The translations under genes and the position numbers were made by a program. A stretch of 43,847 bases of DNA from Candidatus Parvarchaeota archaeon (GTDB taxonomy: Archaea; Nanobdellota; Nanobdellia; Parvarchaeales; Parvarchaeaceae), in contig JAMCRO010000027.1 of the NCBI GenBank assembly GCA_023380615.1, positions 1 to 43,847 on the forward strand, written 5' to 3'. The notes under the pieces are model-generated. The model worked only from the letters and a program-made list of their open reading frames with translations, was not told the origin of the DNA and made no database searches. How positions within the stretch are numbered: the first letter of the stretch is position 1; the number at the start of each line of letters is the position of its first letter. Shown one piece after another: positions 21,313-26,023 of this stretch.

Positions 21313-22452
21313 ATGAACAATTATATAAAAAACCTTAGAAAATACTCCCAAAGGGAGGGTTTCTTTGATGGCGAATGGTACGGCTTTAAAGAGCCATTTG
21401 AAAAGGCACTTTCAAGTAATAACAATGAAGATGGTATGCTGCTTTGGCTTAAAGCAGTAGCAAAATACCATATAAATGAAGGCACCGGTTCAACATACTG
21501 GATAGAAAGAGCAAAATCCGGCGGGATAACAAATGAAAAGATAGACAAGGCTGAAAGTTTAGACTCGCTTGTTTCACTGCTTGGAAATTCGGATTCTGGC
21601 CTTTTAAAGAAAGAGAACGGATACAAAGATTATTACATGCCGAAAAACTTTAAACTGGAAGACATGTTCAAAAGCTCCTCTTCTGGAACAACTGGGCCGG
21701 CAAAGACCGTTTATCACACCCCCCAGTCTTTGTCTGTTTCTGCGGTGAATGAATATACTGGGATAAAGGCACAGTATCCTGTAAAGGGGCTAAAAGACAA
21801 GAAACTATTGGCCGCTGGTCCAGTAGGCGCTTATCAGGAAGAACACAGAAAACTTGCAGAGCTTCTTGGAATGGAATATGTGGGAAATGAATTTGAAACA
21901 AAGGGATTGAAACTGCTAAGTCCACAAGAGATGATGCAGGCAATGAAGCCTGTAATGGAAAAGGAAGCTTACGTATTGAAGCAGGGCAACATTGGAATAG
22001 CTACGGCTGCAATGGAGATGCTTTCAATGCTGCCTAAAGACCTGTTTTATGATACTGATTTAATAAAAGTTTCAGGTACGCAGATAACTTCAGAGGGATT
22101 AAAGAAGGCTGAAGAAAAAACCGGTAAAAAACTTATACCAATGTACGGCCATTACGCAGGAAAATCTTCAATAGGTTTTGCAGACGGAGTTAGCATAGTT
22201 CATATAGGCGGCAACAGAATCTATTTCAGCAGCGACATAGCTTATTTCCCAGCATTTCCAGTTACATATATTTATATGAACAATAACGGAAACCCGGCGG
22301 CATATGATCAAAAAGCGCAAACAAAGATGATAGTTGCCTTTCTTTTTACGGCACTTATAAATGATGAAGATTATGCCGTAAAAAGAAAGGCAACAAAAGC
22401 AACAAAGTCATTTAAGAAAATAGACGGAATCTCGGACCTGTCAAGATCCTGA
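21313..22452 (+). CDS. ANL-superfamily adenylating enzyme lacking a canonical C-terminal domain (LuxE acyl-protein-synthetase-like)
   Basis: 'FKSSSSGTTGPAKTVYHTPQSL' matches the ANL P-loop (SSGTTGxxK); 'PMYGHYAGKSS' may replace the YGxTE motif; length about 380 aa. Confidence 0.7.
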   Translation: MNNYIKNLRKYSQREGFFDGEWYGFKEPFEKALSSNNNEDGMLLWLKAVAKYHINEGTGSTYWIERAKSGGITNEKIDKAESLDSLVSLLGNSDSGLLKKENGYKDYYMPKNFKLEDMFKSSSSGTTGPAKTVYHTPQSLSVSAVNEYTGIKAQYPVKGLKDKKLLAAGPVGAYQEEHRKLAELLGMEYVGNEFETKGLKLLSPQEMMQAMKPVMEKEAYVLKQGNIGIATAAMEMLSMLPKDLFYDTDLIKVSGTQITSEGLKKAEEKTGKKLIPMYGHYAGKSSIGFADGVSIVHIGGNRIYFSSDIAYFPAFPVTYIYMNNNGNPAAYDQKAQTKMIVAFLFTALINDEDYAVKRKATKATKSFKKIDGISDLSRS

Positions 22453-22453
22453 A

Positions 22454-23809
22454 TCAGTAGTGTTCTATTCCTCTTTTATCTACAATCTTGGGACCCTTTA
22501 GTTTCTTAGGATCGTAGAAAGGAATTTTGTCTTTATCAACTAATTCTGCATCAAGCGAAGCCAATTTTTTGTCTATTACATATTTTAGCTCCATTTCTTC
22601 CTTGGATAGCTTATCTAAAATTAAATTAAGCAATTCCTCTTTACTGCCCTTAAATTCGTTTCTATAGAAGTAAAAGGTAATTTTATCCAAACCGTTTTCT
22701 CTTGTTATCTCTGCGTATCCCTCTCCCAAATTTAATTTTCTTGATGCGAAAGCAAGGACATCGTCTATTATAATATCGTCTAATTTTGACACACTAAAGT
22801 TGACAAGCTTATTTGTCCTGCCAAGAAATTCGAGATACATATAATCTTTGTCTATGCCGATAAACCTAACTTTTTCCTTTGTGTTGTAATTTATTAAAGG
22901 TGCATGATCATAGCCTTTTAATCCTTTGCTTGTCAAAAGTAATTCGCCTTCAATACCTTTAAGTTTACTGTTAGAAGGATAGTAAACCTTACCGTCGGAG
23001 TAAATACCAAATTCATTGTTATACCTGGAGACTTTAAATATGGATGTATCTGGCATTCTTTCGCTCTTCAACATTTCCTCTGTGTAAAACTTGCTACCAC
23101 AAACTCTTTCTGTTGAAGCAAGTAAATTTATTATGCCCTTTACTGATATAAGCGAATAAAGTAGCCTACTTCTCTCCAAATTTAAAGGCTCCCCTCCCAA
23201 TGCAATGTATATTTCATTTTTGCATGCCAAATTATTTAAGTCTTCTCTGGTTTTATTATCCAAATTATATATCTCCCTGAATAAAAGAGACGGTAACCCC
23301 GTTATAAGTATAGTTTTATTCATTTTTGAATGCGAATCTAGTATACTGTCGCATTTTTTCAAAATTTCCAGGAGGCCCTGGCCAGGCCCAGGATTTAATT
23401 CTATTGAGTTTCCAAATTCTGATATAGCGGACATTCCAACTCCGCTTATAGCGGGCCTTGGAGGGGCTATATTTACAGTTATATAAGGCATACTGCCAAG
23501 TAAATCTTGGTACATATTTATGAAAGCTTCACCCAAAATCTTAATATCCTCGTAAGTTGCAGGTATAACTTTAGGCTTCCCAGTTGAACCAGAGGTTTGA
23601 AACAACGATATATTTGTTCTTATATTGGGTATAAATTTATAAAAATCATCAATAAAGCTTTCTCCTGAAATAACAGGCACATTTTTAAATGTGTATTCTA
23701 AACCTTTAGAGTCTAAATTCTTTAAAGCCCTATATGAGCTTGACTTATAAAAATCTATATTCTTTAATGCATATTCAAAAACCGGTCTAACTTTAGGTTT
23801 TGATTTCAT
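22454..23809 (-). CDS. ANL-superfamily adenylating enzyme (PaaK / coenzyme F390 synthetase-like)
   Basis: 'FQTSGSTGKPKVIPAT' P-loop; 'INLLASTERVCGS' A5-like; 'EFLGRTNKLVNFSVSKLDD' A8-like hinge. Confidence 0.8.
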   Translation of the reverse strand: MKSKPKVRPVFEYALKNIDFYKSSSYRALKNLDSKGLEYTFKNVPVISGESFIDDFYKFIPNIRTNISLFQTSGSTGKPKVIPATYEDIKILGEAFINMYQDLLGSMPYITVNIAPPRPAISGVGMSAISEFGNSIELNPGPGQGLLEILKKCDSILDSHSKMNKTILITGLPSLLFREIYNLDNKTREDLNNLACKNEIYIALGGEPLNLERSRLLYSLISVKGIINLLASTERVCGSKFYTEEMLKSERMPDTSIFKVSRYNNEFGIYSDGKVYYPSNSKLKGIEGELLLTSKGLKGYDHAPLINYNTKEKVRFIGIDKDYMYLEFLGRTNKLVNFSVSKLDDIIIDDVLAFASRKLNLGEGYAEITRENGLDKITFYFYRNEFKGSKEELLNLILDKLSKEEMELKYVIDKKLASLDAELVDKDKIPFYDPKKLKGPKIVDKRGIEHY

Positions 23810-23811
23810 AA

Positions 23812-24333
23812 TTAAATTTCCGATATAAATTTACATTCTGCATCTCCTTTTGCTTTGCAGTATATCTCTTTCGTTGAATATTTTTTATCTAACAAACCTG
23901 TAAAAAGTGAATTTAAGCCGCCGGCTAAAAAAAAGCAAACCGGCTTTTCTGACTTACCGAATATATTAAGATACGCTTCCGCTAATGGGGAAGGATTAAG
24001 AGTAGTTAGAACTTTATCTTTATTGAAATTAAAAACTAATTTTCCAAGACCTGAAGTTGCAACCACATTTGATACCAAATCAAGAGTTTTGTTTATATTA
24101 TTATCAAATCTATTTTTATAATCACCCACTATTCCAGCTATACTAATTGAACCTGCGTTGTATGCTTCATTTTCGTCATATTTTATAAGCTTCCCGATTA
24201 AAGATACGAATATACTCATATTTATAAGAACACCGGGCCTATTCATCAGTAACAACCTGTTGTTCTCAAATTTTATGTTTTTAGTCAGAAGCATCTCATT
24301 TAAGAAGTTATTGGGGCTAACTTCATTTAACAT
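23812..24333 (-). CDS. V4R-domain protein
   Basis: C-terminal 'KEIYCKAKGDAECKFISEI' matches the V4R terminal 'C.a.GdxxCxF' pattern. Confidence 0.75.
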   Translation of the reverse strand: MLNEVSPNNFLNEMLLTKNIKFENNRLLLMNRPGVLINMSIFVSLIGKLIKYDENEAYNAGSISIAGIVGDYKNRFDNNINKTLDLVSNVVATSGLGKLVFNFNKDKVLTTLNPSPLAEAYLNIFGKSEKPVCFFLAGGLNSLFTGLLDKKYSTKEIYCKAKGDAECKFISEI

Positions 24334-24988
24334 ATATGCCGCCTTTGTCTATCCTCATTGGAAGCATTGACCTATCATTGTTCGTTCTTCTCATTTTTAT
24401 TATCTGCATGCTTCTGTCGAAATCGCCACCTAAACCTGTGTAGAAAAGCTCTATCACCGCATCCGAAAGGTATTCGCCACTGAAATAAAGCGTGTCATTG
24501 TCAGAAACCTGCGGCTGCTCGTCAGTAACTATTGCAGTCACCTTGAACTTTTTAAGTTCGGTAACCAAATCCAGCATGAATTTCCTGAATTTGCCCCTGT
24601 CCTCCATGTACATTGAGATTGCAGACAAAGAATCAATTACTACCCTGGAAACCTTGTTTTCATTGATTACATCGAGCACTCCCAGATATTCAAAATTTAT
24701 CGGTGAATTAAATGAAACTATTAGTTTTTTATTGGAAACGAAATTTCTTATATCATTGAAGCCAATTGCCTCCATATCGAGTATTAAATCATCAACGTTT
24801 TCTTCAAATGACACCAAAAGACAGGTTTCTCCGTTCTTTAAACCTTCATGTAAAAATGACATTCCAAGAAGTGACTTTCCGGAGCCCGGTCCGCCCAATA
24901 CGCTTATTACAGAACCGACTTCAAATCCGCCCTCTATCTTTTCATCGAGGCCATGTACACCTGTAGCTATCCTTTTTATTTCTGTCAT
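24323..24988 (-). CDS. KaiC/RAD55-like RecA-superfamily ATPase (single domain)
   Basis: 'GVHGLDEKIEGGFEVGSVISVLGGPGSGKSLLGMSFLHEGLKNGETCLLVSFEE', Walker B 'RVVIDSLSAI'. Confidence 0.93.
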   Translation of the reverse strand: MTEIKRIATGVHGLDEKIEGGFEVGSVISVLGGPGSGKSLLGMSFLHEGLKNGETCLLVSFEENVDDLILDMEAIGFNDIRNFVSNKKLIVSFNSPINFEYLGVLDVINENKVSRVVIDSLSAISMYMEDRGKFRKFMLDLVTELKKFKVTAIVTDEQPQVSDNDTLYFSGEYLSDAVIELFYTGLGGDFDRSMQIIKMRRTNNDRSMLPMRIDKGGIYVK

Positions 24989-25057
24989 AGTAATTACTAT
25001 GTAATAATATAGAAAATTGTATTTAATAAACTTTTGTATTTTGTCTTTTAATAGAAA

Positions 25058-26023
25058 TCAGTTACTATCCTCCTGAGTTTTTTCTTCCTTTTCATTATCG
25101 TTTTTATCAGGTACATTCTTTACATTGCTCTTCTCAAACAGGTCTTTTATTCCTTCAACTCCGACAGGCGTTGGTATGCTGAAACCTTTACTGTCCGTTG
25201 GGATGAATATCATGAGGTTTTTACCGCTCAAGCTTATTTCATACATCATATTAAGCGACCTTAACTGCATTGCAAACAAATCTTTTTTATACTTTGAACT
25301 TGCCTCTATTATTTTATCCGCAGCAAGAGATTCGCTTTCTGCTAATTTAACTCTTGCCTGTTTTTCTCTGTCCGCTACTGCTACTCTAGCCATTGCATCC
25401 TGTAAATCAGGAGGTATGCTTACGTCTCTTATTTCAACGGATATTGCCTCTATTCCCCAGTCTGCTACCCTGTCCTGTATCAAGTTCTTTACGTCCTTGC
25501 CTATTACATCTCTTCCTGCAAGCATTTCAGATAATTCGGTTTTACCGATTATATCCCTCAAAGCAGTCTGTGCTGCTAGTTGAACGGAATCTCTGTAAAT
25601 CTGAACATTCAGAACGGCATTCTCCGAATTTAGGACCTTCCAGAAAAGAAGCGCATCTACATCAACAGGAACGTTGTCCTTTGTAAGTGTCTTCTCTGCC
25701 TTGAAAATAGTGTTGATTACCCTTAAATCCAATGTGATTGGGGTAGTCTGCACAAATGGTATCAGTATATGTATGCCTGGCCCCATTATACCAACATACT
25801 TTCCAAATGAAAGAACGGCTTTTCTGTTCCATTGATTAACTACCCTTATGGCGGCCACTAAAAACACTAGGAAAAGCAATACTGCAACCCCTATCCCAGC
25901 ATATAAATTTACAATTGAAACCAGATAGCCTACAACCGCAGGGATAATAATCACAAAAAGGATGCCTAATGCATCCCCATTAAAGTTTTTCATCTCTGCT
26001 GCCATAACTATTAAGCAAAACAT
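25058..26023 (-). CDS. SPFH/stomatin-family (slipin) membrane protein
   Basis: 'GPGIHILIPFVQTTPITLDLRV', 'AAQTALRDIIGKTELSEMLAGRDVIG', 'WGIEAISVEIRDVSIPPDLQDAMARVAVADREKQARV'. Confidence 0.95.
   Translation of the reverse strand: MFCLIVMAAEMKNFNGDALGILFVIIIPAVVGYLVSIVNLYAGIGVAVLLFLVFLVAAIRVVNQWNRKAVLSFGKYVGIMGPGIHILIPFVQTTPITLDLRVINTIFKAEKTLTKDNVPVDVDALLFWKVLNSENAVLNVQIYRDSVQLAAQTALRDIIGKTELSEMLAGRDVIGKDVKNLIQDRVADWGIEAISVEIRDVSIPPDLQDAMARVAVADREKQARVKLAESESLAADKIIEASSKYKKDLFAMQLRSLNMMYEISLSGKNLMIFIPTDSKGFSIPTPVGVEGIKDLFEKSNVKNVPDKNDNEKEEKTQEDSN

Follow-up and report, generated by a model that had tools for sequence, protein, structure and literature searches.

A KaiC-like ATPase, a V4R protein and adenylating enzymes encoded together in Nanoarchaeota may form a chemical signalling system

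Introduction

In the phenol regulators MopR, DmpR and PoxR, a V4R sensor is fused to an AAA+ ATPase and a helix-turn-helix (HTH) domain. KaiC-like ATPases have been published as archaeal signal-transduction hubs (Makarova et al. 2017, cited in PMC5847659). They are thought to be central to archaeal signalling, and what they sense is mostly unknown. The first archaeal quorum-sensing system was described in Haloferax in 2025, with a possible overlap with the KaiC-like protein CirA, and the molecular link from the quorum signal to the pathway is still unknown (PMC13286277). A survey of quorum-sensing proteins in DPANN archaea mentions neither V4R nor KaiC (PMC7567580).

We analysed a 43,847-nt stretch of DNA (the window) from a Candidatus Parvarchaeota genome (645 kb, 60% complete), in which genes for a KaiC-like ATPase, a V4R protein and two adenylating enzymes, ANL1 and ANL2, lie together. 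As in MopR, DmpR and PoxR, a V4R sensor candidate is coupled to an ATPase, and the zinc-ligand pattern is kept. However, the components are separate proteins, the ATPase is of the RecA/KaiC type and not AAA+, and the module has neither a DNA-binding (HTH) domain nor the His and Trp residues that anchor phenol. The module does not belong to the phenol regulators; by analogy with them, it may work in a sensor-like manner. The module resembles the archaeal KaiC hubs in that an archaeal genome pairs the gene for a single-domain KaiC-like ATPase with one for a candidate sensory protein. In contrast to those hubs, adenylating enzymes are linked here too, and sensor and enzyme are exchanged as a pair. 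ANL1 and ANL2 resemble, in predicted fold, the phenylacetate-CoA ligase PaaK and EhpF of the D-alanylgriseoluteic acid pathway, respectively. However, identity is only 13 to 16%, and the conserved cluster includes no phenylacetate or phenazine pathway.

The locus also bears comparison with the LuxI/LuxR and FeeM systems. A synthase gene adjoins a candidate receptor gene, the two are exchanged together, and FeeM-type synthases lie beside V4R-KaiC in other Nanoarchaeota. Here, however, the candidate receptor is V4R and the transducer an ATPase, not a LuxR factor, and the window enzymes are ANL proteins. On the quorum-sensing criterion of a synthase linked to its receptor, what the window system offers is gene linkage and co-exchange.

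Results

On the minus strand of the window, the genes for the KaiC/RAD55-like ATPase (24323..24988, 221 aa), the V4R protein (23812..24333, 173 aa) and ANL1 (22454..23809, 451 aa) follow one another, with an 11-nt overlap between KaiC and V4R and a 2-nt gap between V4R and ANL1. This agrees in coordinates and spacing with a sequence-only reading of the same DNA, which had described a KaiC-V4R-ANL operon. Its gene order and its three assignments stand; it overlooked a second adenylating enzyme and the phylum-wide pattern. That enzyme, ANL2 (21313..22452, plus strand, 379 aa), is convergent with ANL1 in the window and ends 1 base from the ANL1 stop codon. Upstream of KaiC lies a gene for an SPFH/band-7 membrane protein (25058..26023, minus strand; PF01145, 2e-38). 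The AT-rich region between them (24989..25057, minus strand) contains a TATA-like box, TTTATTAAAT, that is kept in several relatives. This region is likely the promoter of KaiC-V4R-ANL1, which probably forms its own transcription unit. Matches to sigma-70-like and terminator-like patterns, which do not cover archaeal promoters, were near the shuffled mean. A 14-nt palindrome without mismatches spans the KaiC start codon (24987-25000) but was dismissed because it is not kept in relatives; about 0.5 such palindromes are expected per window when up to 2 mismatches are allowed.

The KaiC-like protein matches PF06745 in Pfam (E=4e-45), and its Walker A, Walker B and catalytic EE motifs are invariant in 13 orthologs. 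It has one domain, whereas the clock protein KaiC has two in tandem. In an alignment read by eye, the columns of the KaiC CII phosphosites are occupied by E172 and Y173, so clock-like autophosphorylation is not expected. Identity as a circadian clock KaiC was ruled out, since the protein is single-domain and lacks the Ser/Thr autophosphorylation pair.

The V4R protein matches PF02830 (E=1.6e-11) with 44.5 bits, above the cut-off of 31, and its profile matches both MopR, a phenol sensor (6e-8), and MJ1460. Residues C133, E156, C159 and C167 are invariant in the orthologs, and MopR has identical residues at the aligned positions. The zinc ligands of DmpR include Cys151, Cys177 and Cys185 (PMC7264223), and the cysteines of the V4R protein have the same spacing, 26 and 8. 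We find in V4R a conserved predicted zinc site in which three Cys residues and a Glu follow the MopR/DmpR pattern. The phenol-anchoring His and Trp of MopR/DmpR are absent: the V4R proteins have no Trp and no conserved His. Phenol was therefore rejected as the ligand, which is probably something else. Genomes of the same genus, some of them without the KaiC-V4R-ANL module, commonly encode proteins of about 345 to 365 aa that carry two V4R stretches in tandem; L025:12305-13396 in G027 is one example, and others occur in G002, G003, G004, G015, G016, G017, G020, G021 and G026.

ANL1 was harder to assign. In Pfam, the window protein has only matches below the cut-off, to GH3 (E=0.003) and to AMP-binding (E=0.034; 13.4 bits against a curated cut-off of 29.9). 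However, all 13 of the 13 ANL1 orthologs match AMP-binding, the best at E=1e-6. A PDB search with the single ANL1 sequence gave no match; a profile of the orthologs was required, and it found the structures of PaaK and GH3 (JAR1). The AlphaFold model of ANL1 (pLDDT 84) has the overall fold, with the C-terminal domain present. In Foldseek its best matches were BT_0428 and PaaK2, at about 1e-19 (PaaK2, 4e-19) and TM scores of about 0.65 to 0.68, followed by the aryl-acid ligases NatL2 and ClxA and then by GH3 amide synthetases. In the ortholog alignment, the P-loop S73-K80 (tested pattern, [T/S]SG[S/T]TGxPK) and the A5 Glu, E234, are invariant, the hinge R331 and the C-terminal Lys, K438, are present in at least 90%, and the A7 position is acidic (D or E). 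ANL1 is clearly a PaaK-type member of the ANL superfamily, an assignment made by fold and motifs only, and it is likely a competent two-step adenylating enzyme, whose product would be a thioester or an amide. The three assignments of the sequence-only reading hence hold, by Pfam for KaiC and V4R and by ortholog profile and predicted fold for ANL.

When genome contigs were scanned with the ANL1 profile, the single match was a close relative of the locus, at 79% in the ANL protein. ANL2 has no Pfam match. Its ortholog profile finds EhpF (E=0.002) over most of the ANL2 length, and the five best fold matches of its model (pLDDT 76) are all EhpF structures. The title of the EhpF structure paper (cited in PMC3175449) describes this protein as an atypical ANL enzyme. 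ANL2 has the ANL N-terminal domain only, and no C-terminal domain. We assign ANL2 to the module because the same-strand operon of genus g3 (G030 and G031), ANL2-KaiC-V4R-ANL1 (L021/L022), starts with this gene. Just before the conserved INDEDYA, the window protein has AFLFTALI where the orthologs have AEPELLLI. A frameshift pair suspected here (window 22330-22365) was rejected, as the DNA has equal-length substitutions.

We then looked at recurrence among 32 genomes of one Nanoarchaeota family. An ANL1 ortholog is present in 13 of the 32, and in all 13 the V4R and KaiC orthologs lie in the same cluster. The synteny proposed from the sequence thus recurs in 13 genomes, which belong to two genera; in G020, KaiC is downstream of ANL1 and not upstream. 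The remaining family genomes have neither ANL1 nor a V4R of the module type, and many genomes of the same genus are without the module. Outside the 13, a KaiC ortholog occurs only in G008 and G025, both cut by contig ends. G025 has KaiC on one contig (C16:3-551) and ANL2 on another (C5:10-1104), and each contig stops where V4R and ANL1 are expected, perhaps because a strain-variable stretch disrupted the assembly. SPFH is present in the eight g1 loci with conserved flanks and absent from the g3 loci. It is a neighbour in genus g1 only, and its membership of the module is doubtful. An SPFH/band-7 gene also lies near V4R in G196, of a different family (L179:4140-4886). The conserved cluster holds no other genes for the catabolism of an activated acid, and no output gene (transcription factor or kinase target) is consistently linked to it.

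Comparison of the strains revealed two types of V4R+ANL1. Between type I (G000, G002, G003, G010 and G026) and type II (G001 and G005), identity is 38 to 44% in ANL1 and 47 to 52% in V4R. In contrast, the flanking genes are 83 to 93% (KaiC), 88 to 96% (SPFH) and 67 to 76% (ANL2) identical. Within type II, G001 and G005 are about 95% identical in V4R and ANL1. Sliding nucleotide identity drops at the V4R start and recovers at the ANL1 end, which delimits an unstranded segment at 22465..24300 (approximate ends) that is also AT-richer, with 31 to 33% GC against about 39%. The two groups, which were picked after inspection of the identity table, have 98 to 100% support from V4R+ANL1, whereas SPFH+KaiC DNA rejects both type I (p=0.005) and type II (p=0.009). 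Judged by flanks, G014 is the most diverged genome; the ANL1 tree places it with type I, to the exclusion of type II. Therefore, the V4R+ANL1 pair was exchanged between lineages. Rapid evolution alone does not account for the divergence, because the flanks reject the tree of the pair and G014 groups inside type I. These data show that V4R and ANL1 are exchanged between strains as a unit, with one clear swap documented. KaiC and ANL2 are equally adjacent to the pair, yet they lie outside the exchanged segment.

Across the phylum, V4R matches were found in 35 of 279 genomes, so most genomes have none. Outside the family, KaiC lies within 1.5 kb of V4R at 13 of the 19 loci examined (a recount; the script used 14). 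A crude random-placement estimate puts the probability of this proximity by chance far below 1e-15. The V4R-ANL1 pair and a convergent adenylating enzyme recur in family f13, where KaiC is not adjacent; the convergent enzyme matches ANL2 strongly in G053 and weakly in G043. In family f67, a DUF835 gene, three KaiC genes, ANL and V4R are clustered (KaiC-ANL-V4R) beside a gene for a B12-binding radical SAM protein. No added loci of the set came from searches around G260 and G043.

The FeeM-type N-acyl amino acid synthase, which has a LuxI-like fold (PMC9654057), gave 8 matches in the 279 genomes, and 7 of the 8 are beside V4R. It adjoins V4R in G082, G214, G218, G240, G270 and G286 and is one gene away in G159; the matches in G159 and G214 are below the Pfam cut-off. 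Two more FeeM genes (G110 and G107) were found by inspecting V4R neighbours and are not independent evidence. The G082 protein also has a weak match, below cut-off, to the LuxI family. In the usual layout, KaiC-V4R stands tail to tail with the synthase, and the window counterpart is KaiC-V4R-ANL1 tail to tail with ANL2. No FeeM gene was found in the window. Other enzyme genes beside or near V4R/synthase genes encode B12-radical SAM proteins (G218, G240, G286, G260 and G177) and ThiF (G110 and G214).

Discussion

V4R is the common element of these loci, with an ATPase on one side and a ligand-making or ligand-activating enzyme on the other. The simplest reading of this shared linkage is a synthase, a receptor and a transducer. 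We therefore suggest, with a probability of about 0.55, that the genes encode a module for ligand synthesis, sensing and switching: the linked enzyme would make or activate a molecule, and V4R would sense it and gate KaiC. In this scenario, ANL1, probably with ANL2, would adenylate a small aromatic or acyl carboxylic acid, a reaction that would make or activate a small-molecule ligand. The V4R protein would bind the ligand in its zinc-stabilised domain, and ligand-bound V4R would alter how the KaiC-like protein hydrolyses ATP or assembles. The KaiC-like protein may then relay the signal, much as V4R gates the attached AAA+ ATPase in MopR/DmpR. We infer a ligand, its binding by V4R, an action of V4R on KaiC, and an output. 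Since a receptor has to fit its enzyme, we propose that a change in specificity entails joint replacement of V4R and ANL1.

The same genes could instead serve a metabolism that responds to its substrate. ANL1 would be a CoA or acyl ligase acting on an environmental or host-derived aromatic or acyl acid, and V4R-KaiC would sense that acid to regulate its use, with no signal synthesised. V4R and PaaK-type ligases both have relatives in aromatic catabolism, and the genome is gene-poor, with relatives thought to be host-dependent (PMC10134863). However, the conserved cluster has no more catabolic genes for the activated acid, the FeeM-type synthases by V4R-KaiC in other families are biosynthetic, and with a shared nutrient there would be less reason for enzyme and sensor alleles to be exchanged. 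We consider this account unlikely.

The exchange of the pair bears on two further explanations. Selection may have acted on only ANL1 or only V4R to vary, for example under phage or host pressure, with the neighbour carried along, so that the two need not share a ligand. The genes are adjacent and both AT-rich, and the clear swap is a single one, as such hitch-hiking would have it. However, KaiC, which overlaps V4R by 11 nt, and ANL2, 1 nt from ANL1, are as adjacent and remained outside the exchanged segment, and V4R is linked to synthases in unrelated families too, which makes hitch-hiking improbable. Alternatively, V4R could be an acyl acceptor and not a sensor, with ANL1 acylating a V4R cysteine and KaiC driving loading or release; acylated TRAPP Bet3 and the LuxE acyl-protein synthetase are comparable cases. 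Tight V4R-ANL1 coupling, co-exchange and invariant V4R cysteines would all follow. Yet those cysteines fit the MopR/DmpR zinc-ligand pattern and leave no spare conserved Cys, and elsewhere V4R is linked to quite different enzymes. We regard an acceptor role as highly improbable. For synthesis and sensing of a ligand, in turn, exchange of V4R+ANL1 as a unit and the placing of V4R-KaiC by other synthases give independent support to the idea, put forward in the sequence-only reading, that the ligand of V4R is the substrate or product of the ANL enzyme.

The synthase-V4R-KaiC arrangement may be a chemical signalling system. A more tentative extension, which we hold as a possibility only, is that Nanoarchaeota have an unrecognised class of cell-cell signalling. 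A KaiC-V4R operon would be combined with interchangeable synthases (FeeM/LuxI-like acyltransferases, radical-SAM or ThiF enzymes, or the PaaK/EhpF-like ANL pair), and swaps of V4R with its synthase would create strain dialects. The hub role of KaiC is already known; we found no report of the synthase-V4R-KaiC arrangement in the open-access literature, within which it is apparently unreported. The loci give a candidate synthase, receptor and transducer in one place, and because matched and mismatched alleles occur in nature, the ligand hypothesis can be put to a direct test in vitro. The loci further suggest that DPANN archaea, minimal and probably dependent on hosts, retain machinery dedicated to sensing small molecules or to communication.

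Several other genes were seen around V4R in the phylum. Methyltransferase-FeeM fusions convergent with V4R-KaiC occur in three families (L169:3469-4722, L176:4362-5768 and L192:5827-7278). In G159, near a V4R-KaiC-V4R cluster, a response-regulator receiver domain is fused to a FeeM-like acyltransferase domain (L173:8081-9583). FIST-domain proteins are encoded beside or near V4R in three other genomes (L182:5143-6438, L183:5051-6346 and L175:7959-9266). In G036, a transglutaminase-like gene (L111:4753-5397) directly follows a V4R-KaiC pair, and a methyltransferase gene lies on the other side.
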